The notes under the pieces were generated by a model. That model was given only the letters and a program-made list of their open reading frames with translations, was not told where the DNA came from and ran no database searches. A DNA stretch of 44,288 nt from Candidatus Zixiibacteriota bacterium (GTDB lineage Bacteria > Zixibacteria > MSB-5A5 > DG-27), in contig JAUWHO010000038.1 in assembly GCA_030605835.1 (NCBI GenBank), positions 1-44,288 of the forward strand, given 5' to 3'. The translations under genes and the position numbers were made by a program. Within the stretch, counting starts at the first letter, position 1. Every line of letters starts with the position of its first letter. This document shows, piece by piece, positions 13,607-40,719 of this stretch.

Positions 13607-16600
13607 ATGAGACATTTCATTTTACTCTTCGGGGTGGTTGTGACATTTGGACTCTCGTTGCTGGTAATGCCTTGTGCTTTAGCTACAGGAGGAGGGCAGG
13701 CAATCACCGTTACGATACCCGCGGGCAGCTACCAGATCACAGACACAGAACGCGGACAGGAAATCACTGTTGAGGATTTTGGATACCTGCTGGTACCAGG
13801 AAAACCAGCTCTCCCCTCTAAGATCTTCGCTATTGCGATTCCTCCAGGTGCTGAGGTTGTTGATGTCAGTTTTGATGCCGGCCGCGGTATTACGCTACCC
13901 GGAGTTTATGAAATAGCTCCGGCTCCCTTGCCGAGAGTGATTGGTCAGGAGGACCCTTTCATTTACGAGAAAGAAAAGCAGCTTTATCAGAAGAATTTTG
14001 AGTCTGTTTACGGTAGTGATGACCTATATCCTCAAGAGGTTGTAGAATTTGTACGTGCTGCCGGTTACAGGAAATACAACTTGGTGGATGTGAGAGTTGT
14101 GCCATTTACATATCGTCCCATATCTGGCAAGTTGGTTTGTTACCCCGAAATTGCTGTCCGAGTAAGCTACAGACCCTCAAGCAGACTAAGCGAGGCAATC
14201 GTTGACAACTTGGAGCGAACTGAGCGAATCGCGGAGGAGATCATAGTCAACTATGACCAAGCTATGAGCTGGTATCCACAGGAGATGCCAATGGTCAGCG
14301 ATCTTCACGACTTCGTAATCATTACCCTGAGCTCGTTGGCAGAATCGGTTGCTCCTCTGGTGGACTGGGAAACCACAAAGGGGAGAAACGTTGAAGTGGT
14401 GACCACCTCCTGGATTGATGCCAACTATAGTGGCTACGACCTGGCGGAGAAGATGAGAAACTTCCTCAGAGAGAAGCACCCCTCCAGTGAATGGGGCATT
14501 GAAGATGTGCTGCTTGTAGGTCATTACGATGATGTTCCGATGCGTCGCACATGGCAGGATGTTGGCTACGGAAAGCCGGAGACTGATTTTTACTATGCGG
14601 ACCTCTCCTTACCGGATGATCAATCCTGGGATATCGACCAAGATCATCTATATGGTGAGGATGCGGACATAAATGATTTCTATGCGGAGGTGAGCGTTGG
14701 TCGAATCCCCTGGAGTGATCCCGGTGTTGTGTTGAGTATTTGTGAAAAATCCGTTGCCTATGAGCAAAACGACGACCCGACATTTAAAAAGAACATACTC
14801 CTTCTGGGGGCTTTCTTCTGGGACGATGATCCTAACCCTCGTACTGATTGTGCCGTGCTCATGGAGGCAAAGGTCGATCAACCGTGGATGTCTGATTGGA
14901 CTATGACCCGGATGTACGAGCTGGGCTACTCCACATATCCAATGGACTACGACCTGAGGAACAGTAACGTGGTCTCGGTGTGGTCGTCCGGCACCTATGC
15001 TTTTGTGAACTGGGCCGGCCACGGAAGCCCGTATTCCAGCCATAGATATCACGATACCGGGGAGGCTTTCATCCATTCGAGCAACTGTCCGCAGCTCAAC
15101 GACGATTATCCCGCAATTATTTTTGCGGATGCTTGCAGCAATTCAGATACCGATTATTTGAATATCGGACAGGCAATGATGCGGCAAGGGGCGGTGGGTT
15201 TTTGGGGGGCTACTAAAGTCGCCTATGGATGTCCAGGCTGGACCGGTCCGCTCGACGGCTCCAGTCAGTCTTTAGACTACTTCTTCACAACGTATGTCAC
15301 CTCAGGCGAATATAGTCAGGGTGGGGCTCATCAAAGGGCCTTGCGGGATATGTACCTGTATGGGCTATGGTATAATGTCAAGTATGAAACGTTTGAGTGG
15401 GGAGCGCTTTGGGGTAATCCGGATCTGGGGATGGCTCCTCCGGTGCCTCGGCCGTTGGTCATTCTCTTACCCGATGGCTTGCCTGAGTACCTCGAGCCAG
15501 GTGTCCCCACCACTTTTATAGTTCGGATCGAGAACGGCGGCCAGAATTATGTTGCCGGCACCGGGAGGCTCCACTATCGCTATGACGGTGGTGATTTCTT
15601 GACCTCCGAGTTGACCTCCATCGGAAAGGGCCTCTACGAGGCCACCCTCCCGCCCGCGGGTTGTGATGCCGTCCCGGAGTTTTACATCAGTGCCATGGGA
15701 GACGGGGGATCCACGGTACTGAGTCCGCCGGATGCGCCCAATTCAGTTTACACCGCATTGGTCGGGACCGTAACCATAGTCATGGAGGACAATTTCGAAA
15801 CCCATCAAGGCTGGACCGTCTCCGGCGATGCCCTCGACGGTCACTGGGAACGAGGTGTGCCCGTAGGCGGTGGTGGGCGAGGTGATCCGCCGAGGGATTT
15901 CGATGGCTCCGGGCGATGTTATCTTACCGGCAATGAAGTCGGAGACTCCGATGTTGACGGTGGGTACACCTACCTGACCTCTCCGACCATCGACCTCTGC
16001 GAGATTGAAGACCCTCAAGTCGAGTACGCCTTGTGGTACACCAACAATGTGGGCAACGCTCCCAACAATGATCTGTTCAAGACCTATATCTCCAGCGATA
16101 ACGGCGCAAGCTGGGTTTTGGCTGAGACGATCGGCCCCGCGAGCATCGGCGGTTGGGCAGAGCATTCGTTTAATGTCACCGACTTTGTGACCCCCACTGA
16201 GCAGACTAAGGTCCGCTTTGAGGCCTCAGATCTTGACAGCGCATCCGTCGTTGAAGCTGGGATTGATGCTTTTAGGGTAGTGATAGTGGAATGCGATGAG
16301 CTCCCCACAGTCTCCATCGACATAATCCCCGACAACCCGCCGATTGTGGTGCCTCCGGGAGGATACTTCACCTATACCGGTGTTGTCACCAACAACACCT
16401 CCACTTCCCAGAGGGTCGATCTCTGGGTGATGGTCACCTTGCCCAATGGTGATCCGTACGGGCCGGTCAAGCAGTTCAGCAATGTGCCTCTTGGGCCCAA
16501 CCAGACCAGAACCCAGACCGAGATCCGGCAAAACGTTTCCAGCCTTGCGCCTCCGGGAGATTACGTCTACACCGCCTACTGCGGCGAGTATCCCTCCAAT

Positions 16601-16972
16601 GTGATCTCCCTGGATTCCTTCGAGTTCACCGTCACCTCCGGAAAGGTGAGCGAGGGCGTTGATTGGACCCTGGAGGGATGGTTTGACGAGGGCAGGGAGC
16701 TGTTGCCGGAAAGGACCGAGCTGTTCGGCAACTTCCCCAATCCGTTCAACCTCACCACCACATTCAGCTACGCTCTGGCGAATGATGCTGATGTGACCCT
16801 GGAAGTGTATGACCTCCTCGGCCGAAAGGTGACTACGCTTATTAACAAGCAGCAGCAGGCTGGTTACCATCATCTGATCTGGAATGCAAAAGTGATATCA
16901 TCCGGCGTGTATTTTTACAGAATTCACGCAGGAGATTTTACTGAAGCTAAGAAGATGTTGCTGTTGAAATAG
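13607..16972 (+). CDS. C25 family (gingipain-type) cysteine peptidase with T9SS sorting tail
   Basis: 1121 residues. A signal peptide (about 1-27) is followed by a propeptide-like region to about 220. The peptidase C25 core starts near FVIITLSSLAESVAPLVDWETTKGRNVEVVTT. The catalytic dyad is visible as NWAGHGSP (His472) and FADACSNSD (Cys510), spaced as in gingipains. An Ig-like gingipain C-terminal segment follows (about 605-700), then a jelly-roll-like domain (about 720-895) and a further Ig-like segment. The last about 80 residues are a T9SS type A/FlgD-like tail: NFPNPFNLTTTFSY, VYDLLGRKV, SSGVYFYRIHAGDF, KKMLLLK. The product is predicted to cross the outer membrane through the type IX system. 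The start is followed by a typical signal; GAAGGAG lies upstream. No inhibitor gene is adjacent. Confidence 0.9.
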   Translation: MRHFILLFGVVVTFGLSLLVMPCALATGGGQAITVTIPAGSYQITDTERGQEITVEDFGYLLVPGKPALPSKIFAIAIPPGAEVVDVSFDAGRGITLPGVYEIAPAPLPRVIGQEDPFIYEKEKQLYQKNFESVYGSDDLYPQEVVEFVRAAGYRKYNLVDVRVVPFTYRPISGKLVCYPEIAVRVSYRPSSRLSEAIVDNLERTERIAEEIIVNYDQAMSWYPQEMPMVSDLHDFVIITLSSLAESVAPLVDWETTKGRNVEVVTTSWIDANYSGYDLAEKMRNFLREKHPSSEWGIEDVLLVGHYDDVPMRRTWQDVGYGKPETDFYYADLSLPDDQSWDIDQDHLYGEDADINDFYAEVSVGRIPWSDPGVVLSICEKSVAYEQNDDPTFKKNILLLGAFFWDDDPNPRTDCAVLMEAKVDQPWMSDWTMTRMYELGYSTYPMDYDLRNSNVVSVWSSGTYAFVNWAGHGSPYSSHRYHDTGEAFIHSSNCPQLNDDYPAIIFADACSNSDTDYLNIGQAMMRQGAVGFWGATKVAYGCPGWTGPLDGSSQSLDYFFTTYVTSGEYSQGGAHQRALRDMYLYGLWYNVKYETFEWGALWGNPDLGMAPPVPRPLVILLPDGLPEYLEPGVPTTFIVRIENGGQNYVAGTGRLHYRYDGGDFLTSELTSIGKGLYEATLPPAGCDAVPEFYISAMGDGGSTVLSPPDAPNSVYTALVGTVTIVMEDNFETHQGWTVSGDALDGHWERGVPVGGGGRGDPPRDFDGSGRCYLTGNEVGDSDVDGGYTYLTSPTIDLCEIEDPQVEYALWYTNNVGNAPNNDLFKTYISSDNGASWVLAETIGPASIGGWAEHSFNVTDFVTPTEQTKVRFEASDLDSASVVEAGIDAFRVVIVECDELPTVSIDIIPDNPPIVVPPGGYFTYTGVVTNNTSTSQRVDLWVMVTLPNGDPYGPVKQFSNVPLGPNQTRTQTEIRQNVSSLAPPGDYVYTAYCGEYPSNVISLDSFEFTVTSGKVSEGVDWTLEGWFDEGRELLPERTELFGNFPNPFNLTTTFSYALANDADVTLEVYDLLGRKVTTLINKQQQAGYHHLIWNAKVISSGVYFYRIHAGDFTEAKKMLLLK

Positions 16973-17365: not shown

Positions 17366-18454
17366 ATGATAAATGAAATACAGACCCTAGAAAAGATCAA
17401 AGAGTCGTTAATAAAGATATTTGAATCCGCCCAGGCAGCACGGATAGCAAAAGTGACAGAACAAGGATTTGTTAGCCAAGATCGATCCCAAGGCTTGCGG
17501 CCAGATTTAATTGTCGACCTCGAAACGCCAAATAATAAACGATACCGATTAATCGTTGAAGTAAAATCAAGTGGTCAACCACGATTGGTCCGGATGGCTA
17601 TTAATATTTTGCAGACATTAATTGATAATAAACCGAATGCGTATGGGGTTTTTGCAGCACCATATATTTCAGAGGACTCCCAGCAATTATGCAAGGAAGC
17701 TGATATAGGGTTTGTGGATATGGCGGGAAATTGTTTTCTTAAATTTGGCGAAATCTATATTAGCATTGAAGGCAAAAAAAATCCATATCCATCTTCATGG
17801 TCGCTCAAAACATTATTCTCTGCCAAATCATCGCGCGCATTAAGGGGGTTGCTTTCCAGTGAAAAAAGAGATTGGTTAACCATTGAGCTTGCGCAGGAAG
17901 TAAATATAAGTCTCGGATTAGCCTCGAAAGTAAAACAATACTTATTGGAGAATGAATTGGCGAAAGGGGTTCAAGAAGGTAAGTTGAGGAAATTCAAGCT
18001 GACAAATCCAGAGCAATTGCTAACGAGATGGTCAGACGAATACAATTATAAAAAGAATAACCTGAACGATTATTATTCGATAGAGGATATAAAAACACTT
18101 GAGCGAAAATTACCGGGGATTCTTTCTGGAAATGATATCAAATATGCCTTTTCATTAACCTCGGGAGCCTCATTTGTAGCCCCCCATTTGAGATATAGGC
18201 GCTCATTTGTCTATATCGAAAGTGGAAAAATCAATGAAGCAGCGGAGCTGTTGAAACTGAAACGTGTTACATCAGGGGCAAATGTCATATTAATGGAACC
18301 GTATGACGAGGGTGTGTTTTATGGTCTCCAGGACATTCGTGGAGCCAAAGTAGTTTCAGTCATACAGCTTTATCTTGATCTTCGAAATTTCAAAGAGCGT
18401 GGAGAAGAAGCAGCTGAATTTATTCTTCAACAGAGGATAAAAAATAGATGGTAA
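17366..18454 (+). CDS. AbiEi-type antitoxin with PD-(D/E)XK-like N-terminal domain
   Basis: 362 residues. The N-terminal 120 residues contain RPDLIVDL (Asp47) and, 18 residues on, VEVKSSG (Glu65-Val-Lys67). This is the order and spacing of a PD-(D/E)XK nuclease fold, followed by ADIGFVDMAGNCFL, a segment recurring in proteins annotated as type IV AbiEi antitoxins. A winged-helix region lies at about 150-210 (LRGLLSSEKRDWLTIELAQEVNISLGLASKVKQYLLE). The C-terminal domain includes YAFSLTSGASFVAPHLRYRRSFVYI. Role: transcriptional autoregulator and antitoxin for the nucleotidyltransferase encoded next. The stop overlaps that gene's ATG by seven bases. Composition is markedly AT-rich compared with the neighbours, suggesting horizontal gain. 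Whether the nuclease-like residues are catalytic is unknown. Confidence 0.82.
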   Translation: MINEIQTLEKIKESLIKIFESAQAARIAKVTEQGFVSQDRSQGLRPDLIVDLETPNNKRYRLIVEVKSSGQPRLVRMAINILQTLIDNKPNAYGVFAAPYISEDSQQLCKEADIGFVDMAGNCFLKFGEIYISIEGKKNPYPSSWSLKTLFSAKSSRALRGLLSSEKRDWLTIELAQEVNISLGLASKVKQYLLENELAKGVQEGKLRKFKLTNPEQLLTRWSDEYNYKKNNLNDYYSIEDIKTLERKLPGILSGNDIKYAFSLTSGASFVAPHLRYRRSFVYIESGKINEAAELLKLKRVTSGANVILMEPYDEGVFYGLQDIRGAKVVSVIQLYLDLRNFKERGEEAAEFILQQRIKNRW

Positions 18455-19290
18455 CAAAAAGCGATTATGGCGATTCAGCCGTTCAGGCATGTTTGTCCGT
18501 GATGGTCGAATTAATGACAGTGCTTGGTGAATTCCGCGACGGGATGGTCTTGGTAGGTGGCTGGGTTCCCTATTTTTTGTTTCCTGAAGACCAGAAAAAT
18601 CACATTGGCAGCCTTGATATTGATATTGCTTTTGACTTTAATAAAATTCCCGTGGATTCCTACGGAACTATATTGAAACTGCTCGAAAAACAGGGTTATG
18701 TACAAAGCGACAAACAGCCCTTTATCTTTTATCGTAGCGTTAAGGATAAGGACGGAGTGCCCATTAAAATAGAGATAGACCTGCTATCAGGCGAATATGG
18801 TGGGACGAAAAAATCTCACAGGACGCAGACCATCCAGGATGTTAAAGCGAGAAAGGCACGCGGTAGCGATTTAGCTTTCAGTATTAATTCATCTACAAAA
18901 TTGAGAGCGACTATGCCTGATGGCGCGATTAATGAAGTGAAAGTAACAATACCTGGCGCGGTTCCTTTTCTTGTTATGAAGGGGATGGCTATGTGGGACA
19001 CTATCAGGGAAAAGCACGCCTATGATATTTATTTTTCTATCGAACATTTTGAGGGTGGTATCGATGCTTTAGTTAAGGAATTTCAGCCTCATAAATCGCG
19101 CTCTTTGGTGAAGGAAGGTCTCGGCAAAATCAGAAACCTGTTTGAATCGATTGATTCACAAGGTCCAGTTGGTGTTGCTAATTTTCTGGAAATCCATGAT
19201 GGCGATGAGAGAGCGCAGCTAATCAGAGATGTCTTTGAGAAAGTGAATACTCTTATGGATTCCCTCGGAATAGATCCTTTTAGCGATTAG
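18448..19290 (+). CDS. AbiEii-type nucleotidyltransferase toxin
   Basis: 280 residues of the DNA polymerase beta-like nucleotidyltransferase superfamily. LVGGWVPYF (Gly37-Gly38) is followed by GSLDIDIAFD with Asp57 and Asp59 as predicted metal ligands. A further acidic strand, IKIEIDLLSGEYG, may supply the third carboxylate. The C-terminal half is helical (FLVMKGMAMWDTIREKHAYDIYFSIEHF), with a Lys and KHAYDIY typical of the AbiEii/AbiGii family. Known family members modify RNA or GTP-related targets and cause reversible growth arrest or phage abortive infection. It is translationally coupled to the AbiEi-like gene and shares its AT-rich composition. Family assignment is firm; target and phage role are inference. 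Confidence 0.85.
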   Translation: MVTKSDYGDSAVQACLSVMVELMTVLGEFRDGMVLVGGWVPYFLFPEDQKNHIGSLDIDIAFDFNKIPVDSYGTILKLLEKQGYVQSDKQPFIFYRSVKDKDGVPIKIEIDLLSGEYGGTKKSHRTQTIQDVKARKARGSDLAFSINSSTKLRATMPDGAINEVKVTIPGAVPFLVMKGMAMWDTIREKHAYDIYFSIEHFEGGIDALVKEFQPHKSRSLVKEGLGKIRNLFESIDSQGPVGVANFLEIHDGDERAQLIRDVFEKVNTLMDSLGIDPFSD

Positions 19291-20019: not shown

Positions 20020-21477
20020 GTGAGACCTGCAGTAAGATTCCTGAGTGACGAACTGATAGAGAAGATCGTCTCTGAAGGCAGAGAACTGATATGCAAGCTC
20101 GGGGTGGAAATACACAACAAGGCTGTCCTTTCGATGCTTGCTGATCACGGCGCAAGGGTTGACATAAACAAGAGCCGTGCCTATTTCACCCAGGACATAA
20201 TCGACAAAGCCCTGGAGAGTGCGCCCGATTCGTTCAAGCTTTACGATTCGCTCGGAAACGAAGCCCTCGATCTTTCAGGATTTAAGGTCAATTTCACGCC
20301 CGGCTCTGCAGCCATAAATATCCTGGATTATAAGAATAACAGGATCCGCCCGCCGACAACAGCAGATTACATACAATACGCGAAGTTGATGAACAAGATG
20401 GACCACATCGCTTCACAGTCGACAGCGGTCGTCCCCTCTGATGTGCACGAAAGAATATCTGACAGCTATCGTCTCTATCTCTCACTCTTGTTCTGCGAAA
20501 AGCCGGTCGTGACCGGCGCATTTACGATTGAAGCCTTCGAGATCATGAAGGAGCTCCAGATCGCAGTGCGGGGATCGAAAGAGGAACTCAGAGCCAAGCC
20601 GTTGACGATCTTCTCATGCTGCCCCACCTCCCCCATCAAGTGGAGCGAGGTCACCTGCCAGAACTTAATCGACTGCGCCGACTATTCCATACCGGTGGAA
20701 TACGTATCGATGCCGCTTTCCGGATTCATGGCGCCGGTCACGCTCGTTGGAACGCTCATTCAGCACACCGCGGAGACGTTGAGTGGCTTGGTGATAAGCC
20801 AGCTGACAAGCCCGGGGACACCGGTGCTCTACGGTGGCTCGCCCGCCATATTCGATGTCAGATATGAAACCACGCCGATGGGCGCCATCGAGACCATGAT
20901 GATAGATTGTGCCTACAATGAAATCGGGAAGTGTCTCGGGTTACCGACTCAGGCATACATCGGGCTCAGCGACGCCAAACTTCTCGATGCCCAGGCAGGG
21001 CTGGAATCATCGATGGGTGCTACCCTGGCAGCGCTTGCGGGGATAAACAGCATTTCCGGTCCGGGAATGCTCGATTTCGAGAGCTGTTTCAGTCTTGAGA
21101 AGCTAGTCCTCGACAACGAGATCTGCGGCATGGTCTTTCGGATGATTGAGGGCATCCAACCGAAGGAGGACTTTCCCTCTCAGCCGAGATTCGAAGAGCT
21201 TCTAAAGGAAGGGCATCTCTTGATCTCGGATCATACTCGCCGCTATCTGAAAGAGGAAGTCTATTTCCCCGGGCCAGTGATTGACCGGGCAAACAGGTCG
21301 AGATGGCAGGAAGAAGGAGGTCTGACCCTGGGAGAAAGAGCACACCGGGAGGTGGAAAAACTGCTCGGGGAGCATGAACCGGTCAGATTACCCGACGATA
21401 TCAAGAAAGAACTTGCAGAGCTGATGGAGGCTGAGGCTCGTCGCCACGGGATGCAGAGCTTGCCGGAGATAGGTTAG
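20020..21477 (+). CDS. MttB-family (non-pyrrolysine) corrinoid-dependent methyltransferase
   Basis: 485 residues from GTG at 20020, set by GAGAGGAG seven bases upstream. It matches the trimethylamine methyltransferase (MttB) superfamily: N-terminal GVEIHNKAVLSMLADHGARVD and DLSGFKVNFTPGSAAINILD, then the TIM-barrel body with NKMDHIASQSTAVVPSD, FSCCPTSPIKWSE, EYVSMPLSGFMAPVTLVGTLIQHTAETLSGLVISQL and GTPVLYGGSPAIFD. There is no in-frame UAG, so it belongs to the large non-pyrrolysine group, in which characterised members demethylate quaternary amines such as glycine betaine. The reaction would be methyl transfer from a methylated amine to the Co(I) corrinoid of the protein at 22220. Its stop overlaps the next start by one base (TAGTG). 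The true substrate is unknown. Confidence 0.92.
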   Translation: MRPAVRFLSDELIEKIVSEGRELICKLGVEIHNKAVLSMLADHGARVDINKSRAYFTQDIIDKALESAPDSFKLYDSLGNEALDLSGFKVNFTPGSAAINILDYKNNRIRPPTTADYIQYAKLMNKMDHIASQSTAVVPSDVHERISDSYRLYLSLLFCEKPVVTGAFTIEAFEIMKELQIAVRGSKEELRAKPLTIFSCCPTSPIKWSEVTCQNLIDCADYSIPVEYVSMPLSGFMAPVTLVGTLIQHTAETLSGLVISQLTSPGTPVLYGGSPAIFDVRYETTPMGAIETMMIDCAYNEIGKCLGLPTQAYIGLSDAKLLDAQAGLESSMGATLAALAGINSISGPGMLDFESCFSLEKLVLDNEICGMVFRMIEGIQPKEDFPSQPRFEELLKEGHLLISDHTRRYLKEEVYFPGPVIDRANRSRWQEEGGLTLGERAHREVEKLLGEHEPVRLPDDIKKELAELMEAEARRHGMQSLPEIG

Positions 21478-22190
21478 TGCGAAGGACGATTTCCATTCCT
21501 CCAAAATATGTGGTTCCTTCAATAGACGCGGTCCTCAAGGGCCAGGGTATTCCGGAGGCCGTCACCCCTGATGAGACAACGACCCGGCTAGCTCAGCAGT
21601 CTATTTCAATTTACAGGGACCATTCAGATCCGACTGGCATCATCATGGAGATCTCGAAGCCGGACTTCACTGAAGTCTATCGCGGCGGAGGCAAAAACGA
21701 GGAAGAAACACCGCTAGACAAGATTTACAAAGCCTCTGACAGCCTCGCCCTTTTCGCCGTCACCGTTGGTGAAAGTGTTTCTGCGAAGATCTCCGGTCTT
21801 TTCCGCGAAGACGAATTCGCCCTTGGGTCAATGCTTGATTCGGCTGCCTCCCTCGGCGCCGAGATGGCAGCTCAAGCTTTGGAGACGTTTTATGCTGGTT
21901 ACTTGAAGGAAAGCGGTCGATTTGACTCCACAGTGGGAGTTATGCAATTTAGCCCCGGCTATTGCGGATGGCATATGAGCGGACAGAAGAAGCTTTTCCA
22001 GCACCTCCGACCGGATGAAGTTGGAATCACCCTCCGTGAGAGTTTTCTGATGCAGCCTCTCAAATCAATAAGCGGTGTTATCGTTGTCGGTGCGAAAGAG
22101 ATCTTCGAGTTCGATGATGACTTCCCGTTTTGCAGCGATTGTGACACCCATTCATGTCGGGACAGAATAGAAGCTGTATTGAACCAATAG
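21477..22190 (+). CDS. MetH reactivation-domain-like protein
   Basis: 237 residues, GTG start overlapping the upstream stop. It resembles the C-terminal activation domain of cobalamin-dependent methionine synthase, which binds S-adenosylmethionine and helps return Co(II) to methyl-Co(III). The hallmarks are QFSPGYCGWHMSGQKKLF (about 159-176), aligned with the RxxPGYxxCPD region of MetH, and ITLRESFLMQPLKSISGVIV, aligned with the LTESFxMxPxxSVSG segment. The N-terminal half has a helical VGESVSAKISGLF / LDSAASLGAEMAAQALE pattern also found in these domains. The C-terminus holds FCSDCDTHSCRDR, three cysteines that could bind a metal. In this operon it would reactivate the corrinoid protein; it is not a RamA-type iron-sulfur activase. 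Function is inferred from homology and context. Confidence 0.85.
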   Translation: MRRTISIPPKYVVPSIDAVLKGQGIPEAVTPDETTTRLAQQSISIYRDHSDPTGIIMEISKPDFTEVYRGGGKNEEETPLDKIYKASDSLALFAVTVGESVSAKISGLFREDEFALGSMLDSAASLGAEMAAQALETFYAGYLKESGRFDSTVGVMQFSPGYCGWHMSGQKKLFQHLRPDEVGITLRESFLMQPLKSISGVIVVGAKEIFEFDDDFPFCSDCDTHSCRDRIEAVLNQ

Positions 22191-22219
22191 CGTAGCGCTT
22201 CTGAATTCGGGAGAGCAAC

Positions 22220-22858
22220 ATGGACATACTCCAGGAGTTATCTAAAAGCTTGCAGAAGGGCGATGCAGACAGGGTCGCCGAGCTAACGCAGGAAGCAATC
22301 GACGAGAGGCTTGAATCGAAGAGAATCCTGGATGATGGACTCATTGCAGGAATGGCCGTCATCGGGGAGAGATTCAAAAAGCACGAGATATTCCTGCCGG
22401 AGGTTCTTTTTGCTGCCAAGGCTATGTATGCGGGAATGGATCTTCTGAAGCCGCTTCTGATCAAGGAGGGGATTCCGACCATCGGCAAGGTTGTGATTGG
22501 CACGGTGCAGGGAGACCTGCACGACATCGGGAAAAACCTGGTCGCTATAATGCTCAAAGGGGCGGGATTTGAGGTGATTGACCTCGGCAATGACGTCCCA
22601 CCGGAGAGATTCATCGAGGCCGCCCAAAAGGAAGCTGCAGAGGTGATCGGCATGTCGGCTCTCCTGACTACTACCATGCCGGTGATGAAAAAGGTGATCG
22701 ATCTGGCCAAGGAGCGCGGGATCTATGGCAAGACGAAAATAATCGTCGGTGGTGCCCCTTTATCGTCTGCGTATGCCAAAGAGATCGGAGCGGACGCATA
22801 CTGCTACGACGGTCTCAATGCCGTCGACTGCGTCAAGGGTTTCGTGGGGGTTGGGTGA
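22220..22858 (+). CDS. Corrinoid (B12-binding) methyl carrier protein, MtaC/MttC type
   Basis: 212 residues. The N-terminal four-helix cap (about 1-85) includes RFKKHEIFLPEVLFAAKAMYAGMDLLKPLL. The Rossmann-like B12 domain starts VVIGTVQGDLHDIGKNLVAIMLKGAGFEVIDLG, with the base-off/His-on motif Asp99-x-His101-x-x-Gly. IGMSALLTTTMPVMKKVI and IIVGGAPLSSAYAKEIGADAY follow, also standard. The His is the lower axial cobalt ligand. Length is as usual for stand-alone carriers. It lies 29 bases after the activation-like gene, with GGGAGAGC before the ATG. It would shuttle methyl groups between the MttB-type enzyme and the homocysteine methyltransferase. Confidence 0.95.
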   Translation: MDILQELSKSLQKGDADRVAELTQEAIDERLESKRILDDGLIAGMAVIGERFKKHEIFLPEVLFAAKAMYAGMDLLKPLLIKEGIPTIGKVVIGTVQGDLHDIGKNLVAIMLKGAGFEVIDLGNDVPPERFIEAAQKEAAEVIGMSALLTTTMPVMKKVIDLAKERGIYGKTKIIVGGAPLSSAYAKEIGADAYCYDGLNAVDCVKGFVGVG

Positions 22859-22859
22859 T

Positions 22860-23765
22860 ATGCAAAAACTGCTGGATCGCCTTATAGAGGGGGAGGTTCT
22901 GGTCGCTGACGGTGCCATGGGAACGATGTTGCTTGAAAGGGGACTGAAGGCCGGGGACTGCCCGGAGAGGATGAATCTTGAGCAACCGGAAATTCTCGAA
23001 GAGATCGCCAAGCTCTATCTTGAGACCGGCGCCGACATAATCCAGACGAACACTTTCGGAGCCTCCCCGCTAAAGCTTTCACAATACTCTCTCCGAGATG
23101 GGACCGAAGAGATCAATGCCGAGGCCGTCCGTGCCGTGCGTAAGGTTATAGGAGATAGAGCTTACCTCTCAGCCTCGTGCGGGCCCTGCGGGAGGCTCCT
23201 GAAGCCCTATGGAGATGTTAGTCCGCGGGAGGTGGCGGAGGGATTCAGAAGACAGATGAAGGCTCTGGTCCTCGAAGGAGTCGACATGATATGCATCGAG
23301 ACTATGACAGATCTGGAGGAGGCCAGGCTTGCAATCGAAGCCTCAAAATCGGTCTCGCCCTTTACACCGGTCTGCGCCACCATGACGTTCGATCCGACGC
23401 CGAAGGGCTTTTTCACCATCATGGGTGTCAGCATCGAGCAGGCCGCAAGAGGTCTCGCTGATGCCGGTGCAGACATCATCGGCTCAAATTGCGGTAACGG
23501 CATTGAGAATATGATTAAGATTGCTGCGGAGCTCAGAAAGCACACTACTCTCCCTCTGATTATTCAATCGAATGCCGGCCTTCCCGAGGTGAAAGAGAAC
23601 CAGCTGGTCTATTCGGAGACCCCGGAGTTCTTCGCGGAGGGAGCTCAAAAGTTGCTTGAGTGTGGCGTGAACATCATCGGAGGCTGTTGTGGCACCACTC
23701 CGGAGCATATCGCCGCAATCAGAAAAGTGGTGAACGCATTTAATAAGAGATTCGCGAAGATTTGA
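22860..23765 (+). CDS. Homocysteine S-methyltransferase (MetH N-terminal module-like)
   Basis: 301 residues from the ATG at 22860, one base after the upstream stop; GGGGGTTGGG serves as ribosome site. An in-frame earlier ATG at 22749 lies inside the corrinoid gene and is unlikely. The protein is a Hcy-methyltransferase TIM barrel: VADGAMGTMLLERG, ADIIQTNTFGASPLKL, SCGPCGRLLKPYGD, and the zinc ligands Cys211 (IIGSNCGNG) and Cys276-Cys277 (IIGGCCGTTPEHI). It corresponds to the first module of MetH without folate, B12 or activation modules; two of those are encoded upstream as separate genes. Expected reaction: methyl-Co(III) plus homocysteine gives methionine and Co(I). A methylthiol donor cannot be excluded. 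Confidence 0.93.
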   Translation: MQKLLDRLIEGEVLVADGAMGTMLLERGLKAGDCPERMNLEQPEILEEIAKLYLETGADIIQTNTFGASPLKLSQYSLRDGTEEINAEAVRAVRKVIGDRAYLSASCGPCGRLLKPYGDVSPREVAEGFRRQMKALVLEGVDMICIETMTDLEEARLAIEASKSVSPFTPVCATMTFDPTPKGFFTIMGVSIEQAARGLADAGADIIGSNCGNGIENMIKIAAELRKHTTLPLIIQSNAGLPEVKENQLVYSETPEFFAEGAQKLLECGVNIIGGCCGTTPEHIAAIRKVVNAFNKRFAKI

Positions 23766-28821: not shown

Positions 28822-29667
28822 ATGAGAACCTATCTTGACTGCATTCCCTGTTTCTTTGGGCAGGCGCTTCGGGCCGCCCGGATAGCAACAAATGATGAGA
28901 AGCAGATAAAACGGCTTCTGGACGAAGTGGGAATGATGCTTCAAGAGATTTCTCTCGAAAGCACCCCGCCTGAGATTGGAAGATTGATATACGGAAAGGT
29001 GAGAGAGATTACCGGAAATCCTGACCCATATAGAGAAATTAAAAGAGAGAGCACCGAAAAGGGCTTGGCATTATATGACTCCCTGAGGGAGAAAATCAAA
29101 AGATCGGGCGACGGACTCCTCACCGCGATAAGAATCTCTATTGCCGGGAATGTGATAGACCTCGGGGTTAACAGGGAGTTCGATATCGAACAGGAGATGG
29201 AGGAGGTCGCCCAAAAAGAATTTGCGATCTGTGACTATGAAGCATTCAAGAGCTGTTTGGATAAAACCGAGGAAATTCTCTTCATCGGCGATAATGCTGG
29301 AGAGTCAGTCTTTGATAGAATCTTAATAGAGCAACTGAAAAAGCCGGTGATATACGTTGTCAGAGAGACACCGGTCATAAATGATGTGACCCATGAGGAT
29401 GCCATACAGGCGGGTCTTGACCAGGTCGCAACTATACTCTCCTCGGGGACCAATGCACCCGGGACGGTTCTGGAAACATGTAGCGCTGAATTTATAGAGC
29501 TGCTCAACAGCTCCGAGTTTGTGATAAGCAAAGGGCAGGGGAACTATGAAGGGCTTTCTAACGAAAAAGTCCGAATATTCTTTCTCTTGAAGGCGAAATG
29601 CCCCATTATAGCCAACGACATTGGCGTCACGGTCGACGATATCATACTGAAGGGAATCAACATCTGA
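28822..29667 (+). CDS. DUF89 (damage-control phosphatase-like) family protein
   Basis: 281 residues. The DUF89/ARMT1 fold of subfamily I (prokaryotic short form) begins YLDCIPCFFGQALRAAR, with the conserved CxPC pair. It continues with IRISIAGNVIDLGV, then LFIGDNAGESVFDRIL, where Asp157-Asn158 are predicted metal ligands. VISKGQGNYEGLS and CPIIANDIGV follow near the C-terminus. Family members are metal-dependent phosphatases proposed to remove damaged or excess sugar phosphates; the substrate of subfamily I enzymes is unsettled. GGAG stands eight bases before the ATG. It is divergent from the RND operon, with no partner gene on its strand before 29864. Confidence 0.88.
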   Translation: MRTYLDCIPCFFGQALRAARIATNDEKQIKRLLDEVGMMLQEISLESTPPEIGRLIYGKVREITGNPDPYREIKRESTEKGLALYDSLREKIKRSGDGLLTAIRISIAGNVIDLGVNREFDIEQEMEEVAQKEFAICDYEAFKSCLDKTEEILFIGDNAGESVFDRILIEQLKKPVIYVVRETPVINDVTHEDAIQAGLDQVATILSSGTNAPGTVLETCSAEFIELLNSSEFVISKGQGNYEGLSNEKVRIFFLLKAKCPIIANDIGVTVDDIILKGINI

Positions 29668-37150: not shown

Positions 37151-38320
37151 ATGAAAGATAACTTGAGAATATCAAACCGGGTTGCGCAAATACAGAAATC
37201 TGCAATCCACGAAATGACAAGATTGTCGAAAGAAGTGGAGGATGTGGCGTTTCTCTCCTGGGCAAAACCGACCTCCGACACGCCGGAACATATCAAAGAA
37301 GGGGCCGTCTTCGCCATACAGAATGGGCTCGTAGGCGGATATTCCGAAAATTCTGGCTTAATGGAGTTACGGGAGGAGATCGTCAAGAAGCTGAAAAGAG
37401 ATAACGGGATAGATGCCAATGTTTCCCAGATATTAGTGACTGTGGGCGCCATCGAAGGATTGGCCGCAGCGGTGATGGCTTCGATTGATCCCGGCGATGA
37501 AGTCATTCTGCCCTCTCCAACCTATTCCACCCATATTCGTCAGGTTGTTATCGCCTCGGGGAAGCCGGTTCTGGTCCCCACAATCGAAGAGGAGGGATTC
37601 ATCCTGGACATCGAGGCAATCCAGAATGCAATAACTCCCAAGACAAAAGCTGTTATGTATTGTTCCCCGAGCAATCCAACCGGCACTGTCTTCTCCGAGA
37701 AACAGCTTCGCCGGTTGGCCCAGGTTTCTCTGGAGAACAACCTGATGATCATCACGGATGAAGCCTACGAGTATTTTACCTATGATGGTCATAGGCACTT
37801 CAGCATCGGCTCAATTCCGGAAATGAGAAAGAGTGTAGTCAGCTGCTACACATTTACAAAGACCTATGCCATGACCGGCTGGCGGATCGGTTACCTGCAT
37901 GCGGATGAGGAATTGATTCCGCAGATCACGAAGGCTCACATCCCCTTTGCGATCTGTGCTCCGGTGGTCTCTCAATATGCGGCACTTGCAGCTTTGAAAG
38001 GTTCCCAAGACTGCGTCGCAGAATTCAGGGGACACTACCTCTCGGCTCGGAATTTGATGTGCGATCGTCTTGACGGTCTGCATTCAGTTTTCGAATACTA
38101 TAAACCGGATGGCTCCTATCTTATGTTTCCCAAAATACTATTGCCGGAAGGCGAAGACTCCACCACCTTCTGCAAGAAGCTTCTGAGGCAGGCCAAAGTT
38201 TCAACTACACCCGGAATAGCTTTTGGACCGACCGGCCAGGGGCACTTGAGGTTGTCGTTTTGCGTCCCTGAAGAGGAGATAAATAAAGCATTTGATAGAA
38301 TGGAGACTTACTTCAAGTAG
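37151..38320 (+). CDS. Class I/II PLP-dependent aminotransferase
   Basis: 389 residues. Fold type I aminotransferase: GGYSENSGLMELREEIVKKL, ILVTVGAIEGLAAAVMASIDPGDEVILPSPTYSTH, VMYCSPSNPTGTVFS (Asn for PLP ring/substrate), IITDEAYEYFTYDG (Asp and Tyr of the PLP site), and CYTFTKTYAMTGWRIGY with Lys237 as the Schiff-base residue. FGPTGQGHLRLSFCVPEEE carries the C-terminal Arg for the substrate carboxylate. Length is typical. Substrate is most likely aspartate, aromatic or branched amino acids; sequence alone does not decide. AAAGGAG lies 8 bases before the ATG. A zinc-ribbon gene follows after 12 bases and is likely cotranscribed. Confidence 0.93.
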   Translation: MKDNLRISNRVAQIQKSAIHEMTRLSKEVEDVAFLSWAKPTSDTPEHIKEGAVFAIQNGLVGGYSENSGLMELREEIVKKLKRDNGIDANVSQILVTVGAIEGLAAAVMASIDPGDEVILPSPTYSTHIRQVVIASGKPVLVPTIEEEGFILDIEAIQNAITPKTKAVMYCSPSNPTGTVFSEKQLRRLAQVSLENNLMIITDEAYEYFTYDGHRHFSIGSIPEMRKSVVSCYTFTKTYAMTGWRIGYLHADEELIPQITKAHIPFAICAPVVSQYAALAALKGSQDCVAEFRGHYLSARNLMCDRLDGLHSVFEYYKPDGSYLMFPKILLPEGEDSTTFCKKLLRQAKVSTTPGIAFGPTGQGHLRLSFCVPEEEINKAFDRMETYFK

Positions 38321-39024: not shown

Positions 39025-40719
39025 ATGAGCGTGAAATCACAGATAGTCGTGACGGCTGTTGTCTTAGCATTGCTTTTGAATTTGGGCATCTTATCGGCCA
39101 ACGCCCAGCTGCCTGTTAAGGCGCCGCGGTTACCAGAAAAGCAAGGAGATCTGCCTCCCCGGACCGGTTTTGTTCCACCTCCGATGGATCTCTCCCATTT
39201 GACTGGGGAGAAGTTGCCGGAGAGGTTTGAAACCTTAGTGCTCCCGATCCGGTGGGATTGGCGAGAGCAGGGCAAGGTCACTTCCGTTAAGGACCAGGAT
39301 ACTTGCGGGTCCTGCTATGCGTTTGCTGCAGTGGCCAACATCGAATCCAAGATGTTAATGGATGGCGCTGGCACCTCTGACTTTTCCGAGAACAATGCCA
39401 AGGAGTGCAACTGGTATGGGACCAGTTGCGACGGCGGCAACTACACCAAAATGGCAAGCTGGTTTTCCAAAGAGGGCACCGTGCTGGAGTCGTGTGATCC
39501 TTATGTCCCTTGGGACACCACCTGCAAATCAACATGCACCTATACGAAGACTTTGCTGGACTGGAGGATCATTTCCGGGAACAGCGTTCCCAGCATAAGC
39601 GTTCTTCAGAATTACATATACGCCTATGGGTCTGTATATACCTCTCTGTACGCTGGTGACGCTAACGACGCCAGCTGGTGGAGCGAATTCTCCAGCTATA
39701 ACGGTTCATATACGCTCTATTACACCGGCAGCTGGACACCCAATCACGCGGTGTTGATTGTTGGCTGGGACGACACCCTCTCTCACGCAGGTGGGTACGG
39801 GGCCTGGATTGTCAAGAACAGTTGGGGCACCAGCTGGGGTGGGACTTGTGGTTACGGCTCTGAAGATGGCTATTTTACCATAGCCTATGGCTCCGCCAGC
39901 ATCGGGAAGTACTCCTCCTATATGCATGACTGGCAGAACTACGACCAGAACGGAGAGATATTGTATTACGATGAGGGTGGCTGGACAGACAATTGGGGTT
40001 ACAGTGACGTGACCGCATGGGGGCTGTGCAAATTCGTCCCGGCCTCAACGAGTTACCTCAGCAGGGTGGAGTTCTGGACGAACGATACCACCACCGATAT
40101 TGATGTTTACGTCTACGACGATTTCGATGGATCGAACCTTAGTAACTTGCTGACGAGTAAACTAAACACCAGCTATGATGAGGCCGGCTACCATTCGGTG
40201 ACCTTAGATTCACCCCCTCAGATTGCGGGCGGCAACGATGTCTATGCAGTCGTCAAATTCACGAATTCAAGCTACCTATACCCTCTCGTGGCCGATGGTA
40301 TAGGTCCAAACGAGACCGGGATTACCTATATAAGCAGTAGCGGCAGTAACGGCTCCTGGTATGACCTCGGAGCAGGCCAAAGTCAGGACATAGCTATCCG
40401 GGTTCGTATGACCGCATATTCCGGCGTAAATACCGAGAGTCTTCTGGAGTTCCCGGAATCCTTCATCGTAACGCAAAACTATCCCAACCCCTTCAACGCC
40501 GGGACGACTATCGAGTACGAATTGCCCTTGAGCTGCGATGTCACCATCCACATCTATGATTTGCTCGGACGTGAAGTTGAGGCTCTCGTCAACAGAGACG
40601 AGAAAGCCGGCCATCACCAGATCGACTGGAATCCCCCTGACATTCCTTCGGGGATTTACTTCTACAAGGTTCAGGCCGGGGAATTCACAGCGACCATGAA
40701 GATGTTGCTTTTGAAATGA
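39025..40719 (+). CDS. Papain-like (C1A) cysteine protease with T9SS sorting tail
   Basis: 564 residues. A signal peptide (about 1-28, ending ANAQ) is followed by a short pro-segment and the C1A domain (about 72-300). The active site is complete: Gln91 (VKDQD), Cys97 (CGSCYAF), His241 (NHAVLIVGWDD) and Asn265 (VKNSWGTSWG). CDGGN and the surrounding cysteines supply disulfides usual in the family. A beta-sandwich of about 170 residues follows (YYDEGGWTDNWGY...; FVPASTSYLSRVEFWTNDT). The last 80 residues are a type A sorting tail (NYPNPFNAGTTIEYELP, IYDLLGREVEAL, PSGIYFYKVQAGEF, MKMLLLK). GGGAGGTTGAG precedes the ATG, and a strong terminator follows. It is predicted to be exported and released or anchored at the cell surface through the type IX system. 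Confidence 0.93.
   Translation: MSVKSQIVVTAVVLALLLNLGILSANAQLPVKAPRLPEKQGDLPPRTGFVPPPMDLSHLTGEKLPERFETLVLPIRWDWREQGKVTSVKDQDTCGSCYAFAAVANIESKMLMDGAGTSDFSENNAKECNWYGTSCDGGNYTKMASWFSKEGTVLESCDPYVPWDTTCKSTCTYTKTLLDWRIISGNSVPSISVLQNYIYAYGSVYTSLYAGDANDASWWSEFSSYNGSYTLYYTGSWTPNHAVLIVGWDDTLSHAGGYGAWIVKNSWGTSWGGTCGYGSEDGYFTIAYGSASIGKYSSYMHDWQNYDQNGEILYYDEGGWTDNWGYSDVTAWGLCKFVPASTSYLSRVEFWTNDTTTDIDVYVYDDFDGSNLSNLLTSKLNTSYDEAGYHSVTLDSPPQIAGGNDVYAVVKFTNSSYLYPLVADGIGPNETGITYISSSGSNGSWYDLGAGQSQDIAIRVRMTAYSGVNTESLLEFPESFIVTQNYPNPFNAGTTIEYELPLSCDVTIHIYDLLGREVEALVNRDEKAGHHQIDWNPPDIPSGIYFYKVQAGEFTATMKMLLLK

Follow-up and report, generated by a model that had tools for sequence, protein, structure and literature searches.

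Four adjacent genes of a Candidatus Zixiibacteriota contig combine an MttB-type methyltransferase with separate counterparts of MetH modules. This raises the question of what reaction such a set could catalyze, and whether methionine is its product. We addressed it by comparative analysis starting from the window, i.e., the whole 44,288-nucleotide stretch of DNA analyzed.

Organization of the Operon

According to the ORF list of the window and Pfam profiles, all four ORFs are intact, closely packed and located on one (forward) strand. The first gene (20020..21477, 485 aa; MTTB, PF06253, E=6.6e-78) is predicted to encode a non-pyrrolysine methyl donor:corrinoid methyltransferase of the MttB superfamily. 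Its stop codon overlaps by one base with the GTG start codon of the second gene (21477..22190, 237 aa; Met_synt_B12, PF02965, E=2e-8), which encodes a putative stand-alone MetH-type cobalamin reactivation protein (Act). It is followed, after a gap of 29 bases, by the gene of an MtgC/MtbC-type corrinoid carrier (22220..22858, 212 aa) with the B12-binding domain (PF02310, E=1e-30) and the cap domain (PF02607, E=2e-23), and, after one more base, by the gene of a predicted Zn-dependent methylcorrinoid:homocysteine S-methyltransferase corresponding to the Hcy module of MetH (HMT; 22860..23765, 301 aa; S-methyl_trans, PF02574, E=3e-68). The HMT start listed among the ORFs, GTG at 22749 (338 aa), is too early, since it produces a 110-base overlap with the corrinoid gene and alignments with relatives begin at residue 1 of the 301-aa form; hence, the start was corrected to ATG at 22860.

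The sequence-only reading of this locus, which had described four closely spaced genes of these families, including a carrier with the D-x-H-x-x-G motif (here, GDLHDIG) and a fourth protein from the homocysteine methyltransferase family, needed correction only in the start of the fourth gene. It had also noted that folate binding is missing from the operon, and indeed Pfam profiles detect no pterin-binding domain (PF00809) among the four genes. Thus, the modules that form a single chain in MetH are spread here over four separate genes, and the Pfam families agree with the proposed split MetH-like set having an MttB-type module in place of the folate module.

Conservation of the Gene Set

When 84,980 species genomes were scanned by alignment, relatives of the MttB protein were found to be encoded at 464 loci. 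The best 80 of these 464 loci all come from metagenome-assembled genomes (MAGs), mostly of uncultured phyla; named as in the record titles, they represent Zixibacteria, WOR-3/Stahlbacteria, Phycisphaerae and other Planctomycetota, Gemmatimonadota, Acidobacteriota, Aminicenantes, Fermentibacteria, Aegiribacteria, KSB1, Cloacimonadota, Bacteroidota/Ignavibacteria/Chlorobi, and Marinimicrobia. Of these 80 loci, 64 have 2.7 kb or more of downstream sequence, and the order MttB–Act–B12–HMT on one strand is observed in 51 out of 64 (50 counted by a script, plus locus L138 with its one-base overlap of Act and MttB), the other 13 being partial, devoid of Act, or having genes missing or split. The median intergenic gaps in the homologous loci are 8, 38, and 13 bases. 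This recurrence is far beyond chance; the search for the four-gene order across genomes, suggested as a check of the initial observation, thereby found it in many phyla.

The same-order operons in other families of the class encode MttB proteins that are 67–83% identical, while a second order, B12–HMT–Act–MttB, is found in four genomes (G030, G036, G049, G056) with MttB only about 50% identical. The existence of two gene orders for the same four families argues strongly for their joint function. Each of the 24 class relatives with MttB has one such protein per genome, and its gene adjoins that of HMT in nearly all cases where this could be checked on the contig.

No other neighbor is conserved: in 91 neighborhoods, forward-strand clusters beyond the four families reach only six loci, and the few larger reverse-strand clusters lie opposite the operon genes themselves. 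In particular, no folate- or CoM-dependent partner methyltransferase is conserved beside the operon in these neighborhoods, as the sequence-only reading had it for the window. Rfam models revealed no SAM, SAH, or cobalamin riboswitches at the gathering threshold, either in the window or in 28 homologous loci. Rfam matches to PYLIS_3 were rejected, as they lie inside the mttB coding sequence, have no TAG there, and reflect homology to pyl mttB.

The Corrinoid Protein, Homocysteine Methyltransferase, and Reactivation Protein

Asp99, His101, and Gly104 of the corrinoid protein are invariant in 68 homologs. Its best NCBIfam matches are MtgC and the pyl_corrinoid family, both under the cut-off, and its nearest solved structure is 1y80.

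The nearest solved structure for HMT is the Hcy domain of Thermotoga maritima MetH (1q7m, 183 bits vs. 79 bits for BHMT). Residues Asp17, Gly18, Glu147, Asn210, Cys211, Cys276, and Cys277, corresponding to Asp26, Gly27, Glu159, Asn216, Cys217, Cys299, and Cys300 of BHMT, respectively, are invariant in 65 homologs, Cys211, Cys276, and Cys277 being the predicted Zn ligands. At the same time, Trp44, Tyr77, and Tyr160 of BHMT (residue letters were checked against PDB), which we take to be its betaine-binding residues, are replaced by Cys34, Gly67, and Thr148, and direct BHMT-type use of betaine by HMT was rejected for lack of these equivalents.

The AlphaFold model of Act (pLDDT 96) matches TM0269 (1j6r, TM-score 0.67/0.80) and MetH reactivation domains. 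The C-terminal part of Act contains a C-x2-C-x4-C motif (Cys219, Cys222, Cys227), whose three cysteines are invariant in 73 out of 73 homologs and which may carry a metal or Fe–S center.

The MttB-Family Protein and the Methyl Donor

The MTTB domain spans the whole length of the first protein, the MttB superfamily being COG5598. The nearest solved structures according to sequence comparison are Methanosarcina MttB (7xcl) and the glycine betaine methyltransferase MtgB (9yce/2qne). The predicted model, of moderate confidence (pLDDT 73), has the MttB/MtgB fold, with a TM-score of ~0.78 to the MtgB and MttB structures vs. about 0.3 to MetH folate domains.

The match to the profile of MttB proper (TIGR02369) scores 377 bits, under the cut-off of 525, and in the alignment Leu316 and Ser346 occupy the positions of pyrrolysine and Tyr364 of MttB, respectively. 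With both the in-frame TAG/pyrrolysine and Tyr364 missing, assignment to MttB proper, i.e., the trimethylamine enzyme, was rejected. Pyrrolysine was also rejected for mttB of genome G017, where the single in-frame TAG is at codon 431, away from the pyrrolysine position, and more plausibly reflects a nonsense change or an error in the sequence. Residues Tyr94, Asn199, Arg309, and His345 of MtgB have been proposed from docking to hold glycine betaine (PMC6855144). According to the alignment, with the mapping partly scripted, they correspond to Ser96, Cys201, Gln311, and Ser346 of the operon MttB, so that all four differ. The operon protein has a strongly conserved residue set of its own, e.g., Ser96 and Cys201. 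Taking into account Leu316, Ser346, and the four changed MtgB residues, we conclude that it is not a trimethylamine enzyme of the known type, and that glycine betaine is not specially favored as a substrate.

Two further sources yielded no hint at the donor, namely, the gene neighbors, as neither transporters nor amine genes recur consistently beside the operon in the 91 neighborhoods, and the structure, as the model gives no more than the MttB/MtgB fold. A quaternary amine, as suggested initially, is a plausible candidate.

Methionine Synthesis in Genomes With the Operon

In six genomes with the operon, G008 (98% complete), G014 (96%), G034 (95%), G040 (94%), G028 (94%), and G049 (100%), PF02574 is represented by the operon HMT alone, and profile searches, for which control genomes gave the expected matches in each family, detected no MetH, MetE-type PF01717 proteins, or MTHFR. 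The full-length pterin-binding match in these genomes is one dihydropteroate-synthase-like frame, G028 having one additional fragment of 49 positions. Two single-contig chromosomes with the operon, G058 (CP070756) and G060 (CP070674), likewise have no PF02574 protein besides the operon HMT and lack MetH, MetE, and MTHFR; in G058, there is also a 22-bit pterin fragment, below the cut-off. The WOR-3 chromosomes G061, G064, and G065 have neither MTHFR nor MetE, but contain, in addition to the operon HMT, fragments or another gene with a weaker resemblance to HMT. No MtgD-like pterin:corrinoid methyltransferase was found in the genome of the window, G008, G014, G034, G040, G049, and G060. In the carriers devoid of MTHFR, methyl-THF cannot be the donor by established pathways, and their gene content suggests a bypass of methyl-THF, in line with the THF-independent route proposed initially.

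S-adenosylhomocysteine hydrolase (AdoHcyase) was found in 20 out of 20 genomes tested, which makes the AdoMet cycle a source of homocysteine. In addition, G028 has a pair of cystathionine beta-synthase-like and gamma-lyase-like genes, and no strong PF01053 enzyme was found in G060.

The operon is often redundant, as many carriers also have MetH, and the window's own genome encodes MetE (695 aa, above the NCBIfam cut-off) with MetF directly after it, so that the operon would provide an additional route to methionine there. The only PF00809 match in this genome is a dihydropteroate-synthase-like frame of 294 aa. The initial suggestion to look for the absence of full-length MetH and MetE was thus borne out by several other carriers, which lack both, but not by the genome in which the operon was noticed. 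Moreover, the presence of the operon does not track MTHFR loss: it is found in about 15 out of 19 MTHFR-positive vs. nine out of 20 MTHFR-negative genomes of the class. Some operon-free relatives keep HMT alone, and some class relatives, e.g., G029 and G035, have no methionine synthase at all. Hence, methionine auxotrophy is common in the class, and recycling of homocysteine, rather than net methionine synthesis, may be the role of the operon.

Proposed Mechanism and Alternatives

Taken together, the four genes probably encode a split, folate-independent, MttB-fed, corrinoid-dependent four-subunit methionine synthase that remethylates homocysteine. The MttB-family enzyme would demethylate a small compound, probably a betaine or an N-methylated amine, and load the methyl group onto the corrinoid protein in its Co(I) state, and the Zn-dependent HMT would pass it from methyl-Co(III) to homocysteine, yielding methionine. 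The PF02965 protein would rescue the Co(II) form through AdoMet-dependent reductive methylation. In most carriers, homocysteine released by S-adenosylhomocysteine hydrolase would probably be remethylated, closing the AdoMet cycle. What the sequences contain is the four families, their co-localization in two orders, the invariant Hcy/Zn and corrinoid-ligand residues, and genomes without a methyl-THF route; the partnership between the proteins, its direction, the class of the donor, and the reactivation chemistry are what we infer from them.

The donor need not be an amine. A halomethane, sulfonium, or methyl thioether could supply a methyl group still destined for methionine, which would be a sub-variant of the main reading rather than an exclusive rival. 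The MttB superfamily contains the chloromethane dehalogenase CdmB (PMC13222342), and the operon protein has kept neither pyrrolysine and Tyr364 of MttB nor the proposed betaine residues of MtgB, conserving its own set (including Ser96 and Cys201) instead; still, most characterized members act on quaternary amines, and a shared supply of halomethanes across so many phyla is unlikely, so that we regard a non-amine donor as possible but doubtful. A larger departure would be the conversion of the MttB-like barrel into a pterin-binding enzyme with methyl-THF as the donor. This is highly improbable given the carriers without any MTHFR and the TM-scores, which place the model with MtgB and MttB and far from MetH folate domains, despite the weak fold resemblance of MttB barrels to dihydropteroate synthase and MetH folate domains.

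Other alternatives concern the fate of the methyl group. The operon could be of dual use, like MtgBCDE of Ruegeria, with betaine demethylated for carbon and energy, THF as the main acceptor via a pterin protein encoded elsewhere, and methionine as a side branch. The subunit families are indeed those of MtgB, MtgC, and MtgE (PMC12478193), and MTHFR is also present in many carriers. We nevertheless consider this unlikely, as an MtgD-like gene is found neither in the genomes listed above nor near the operon in the 91 neighborhoods, and HMT is encoded inside the operon, whereas mtgE of marine bacteria is usually located away from mtgBCD. It is very unlikely that the acceptor of HMT is a different thiol or selenol, the operon then serving methyl detoxification or salvage rather than methionine formation: selenide-accepting corrinoid methyltransferases do exist (PMC10418091) and MetE makes the operon redundant in the window's genome, but the Hcy-pocket residues (Asp, Gly, Glu, and Asn) and the three Zn cysteines are invariant in all 65 homologs, and several genomes with AdoHcyase, either near-complete or single-contig, have no homocysteine methyltransferase other than HMT.

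If the four genes do form a methionine synthase, a widespread annotation would need correction, as mttB in MAGs of Zixibacteria, WOR-3, or Planctomycetota could no longer be taken as evidence of trimethylamine use. In many uncultured bacteria, methionine and AdoMet cycling would then rest on vitamin B12 and a methyl donor from outside, not on folate one-carbon metabolism. A stronger version, in which an MttB enzyme with a new donor replaced the folate module, the set is the sole methionine-forming enzyme of bacteria from several phyla devoid of methylene-THF reductase through loss, and the reactivase uses a Cys-ligated center, has in our estimate roughly even chances. Under this version, the many genes annotated in such MAGs as trimethylamine methyltransferases would belong to the methionine cycle and be no sign of methylotrophy.

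Comparison With Known Systems

A literature search, thin on subscription journals and preprints, found no description of the MttB–Act–B12–HMT operon.

The closest known system is MtgBCDE of Ruegeria pomeroyi and Phaeobacter inhibens, where mutant analysis revealed a requirement for both MtgC and the pterin protein MtgD in methionine formation (PMC12478193; PMC5764234). It also comprises separate MttB-family (MtgB), corrinoid (MtgC), and homocysteine methyltransferase (MtgE) proteins, and the bacteria usually lack MetH and MetE; MetH/MetE-free genomes are found among the operon carriers as well. However, MtgBCDE relies on MtgD, absent from the operon, and its reactivation is performed by RamA and DUF1638, with no PF02965 in P. 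inhibens, whereas the operon encodes a PF02965 reactivator, its four genes are compact, and its carriers belong mostly to uncultured phyla. An MttB-superfamily methyltransferase and a corrinoid protein are also shared with MtgB/MtgC/MtgA of Desulfitobacterium hafniense and MtqC/MtqA of Eubacterium limosum, but there the terminal acceptor is THF, via MtgA/MtqA, while homocysteine is proposed here.

Among folate-independent methionine synthases, MesA–MesD and core-MetE are of the MetE type (PF01717) (PMC7857596; PMC7005905). They form methionine from homocysteine without methyl-THF, as proposed for the operon, but are fed by MtrA, CoFeSP, or MesX, whereas the operon has no PF01717 protein and would use an MttB-fed catalyst of the PF02574 MetH/BHMT type. 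HMT shares with BHMT the PF02574 fold and the Hcy and Zn residues, differing in the three replaced aromatic positions and in the proposed delivery of the methyl group via the corrinoid protein.

The Hcy, B12 (PF02310/PF02607, DxHxxG), and reactivation modules of MetH are all recognizable in the operon, although on separate chains, without the pterin domain, and with an MttB-type donor module; the corrinoid protein is closer to the MtgC/MtbC type than to MetH. The operon would be a compact case of corrinoid module recombination, a swap of the donor module turning MetH into a different enzyme. The reactivation domain is separate also in T. maritima, whose TM0269 is the closest structure to Act, but MetH of this bacterium retains the folate domain (1q7m), and TM0269 does not have the C-terminal C-x2-C-x4-C extension. 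This conserved cysteine motif of the reactivase raises a new question about the rescue of Co(II).

Cysteine motif of Act and possible homocysteine recycling

At its C-terminus (window positions 22131–22157), the stand-alone cobalamin reactivation protein Act carries a C-x2-C-x4-C motif, which is invariant across 73 homologs, whereas TM0269, the stand-alone reactivation protein of Thermotoga maritima, lacks it; in the Act reactivase, these cysteines possibly form a metal or Fe–S site. The single-contig Zixibacteria chromosome G060 (locus L129) carries both the operon and AdoHcyase but no strong PF01053 (transsulfuration/MetY) enzyme, and this combination suggests that the operon there serves pure homocysteine recycling.

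The homocysteine methyltransferases (HMTs) of L080 (G015) and L083 (G021), respectively 64% and 59% identical to the window HMT, have no adjoining mttB, act, or corrinoid gene. The operon is incomplete at L123, L133, L158, L161, L184, and L189, where MttB homologs are about 70–74% identical and some loci lack a nearby HMT or Act.

PYLIS_3 match and in-frame TAG in mttB

An above-threshold Rfam match to PYLIS_3, a pyrrolysine insertion sequence, lies at window positions 20967–21064. The match contains no TAG and represents homologous mttB coding sequence; such matches inside mttB can mislead annotation. Separately, in the single-contig genome G017, an otherwise intact mttB (L072:7948–9396) has an in-frame TAG at codon 431, away from the pyrrolysine position.

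Other genes of the window

An AbiEi-like antitoxin (PF09952) and an overlapping 280-aa ORF with no Pfam match (17366–19290) may constitute an AbiE-type toxin–antitoxin pair. A DUF89/ARMT1-like damage-control phosphatase is encoded at 28822–29667, and the PLP aminotransferase at 37151–38320, whose top NCBIfam match, GntC, falls under the GntC cut-off, is most likely an ordinary aminotransferase. Two large secreted proteins are encoded at 13607–16972 and 39025–40719; the T9SS type A sorting domain of the latter makes type IX secretion likely in this lineage.
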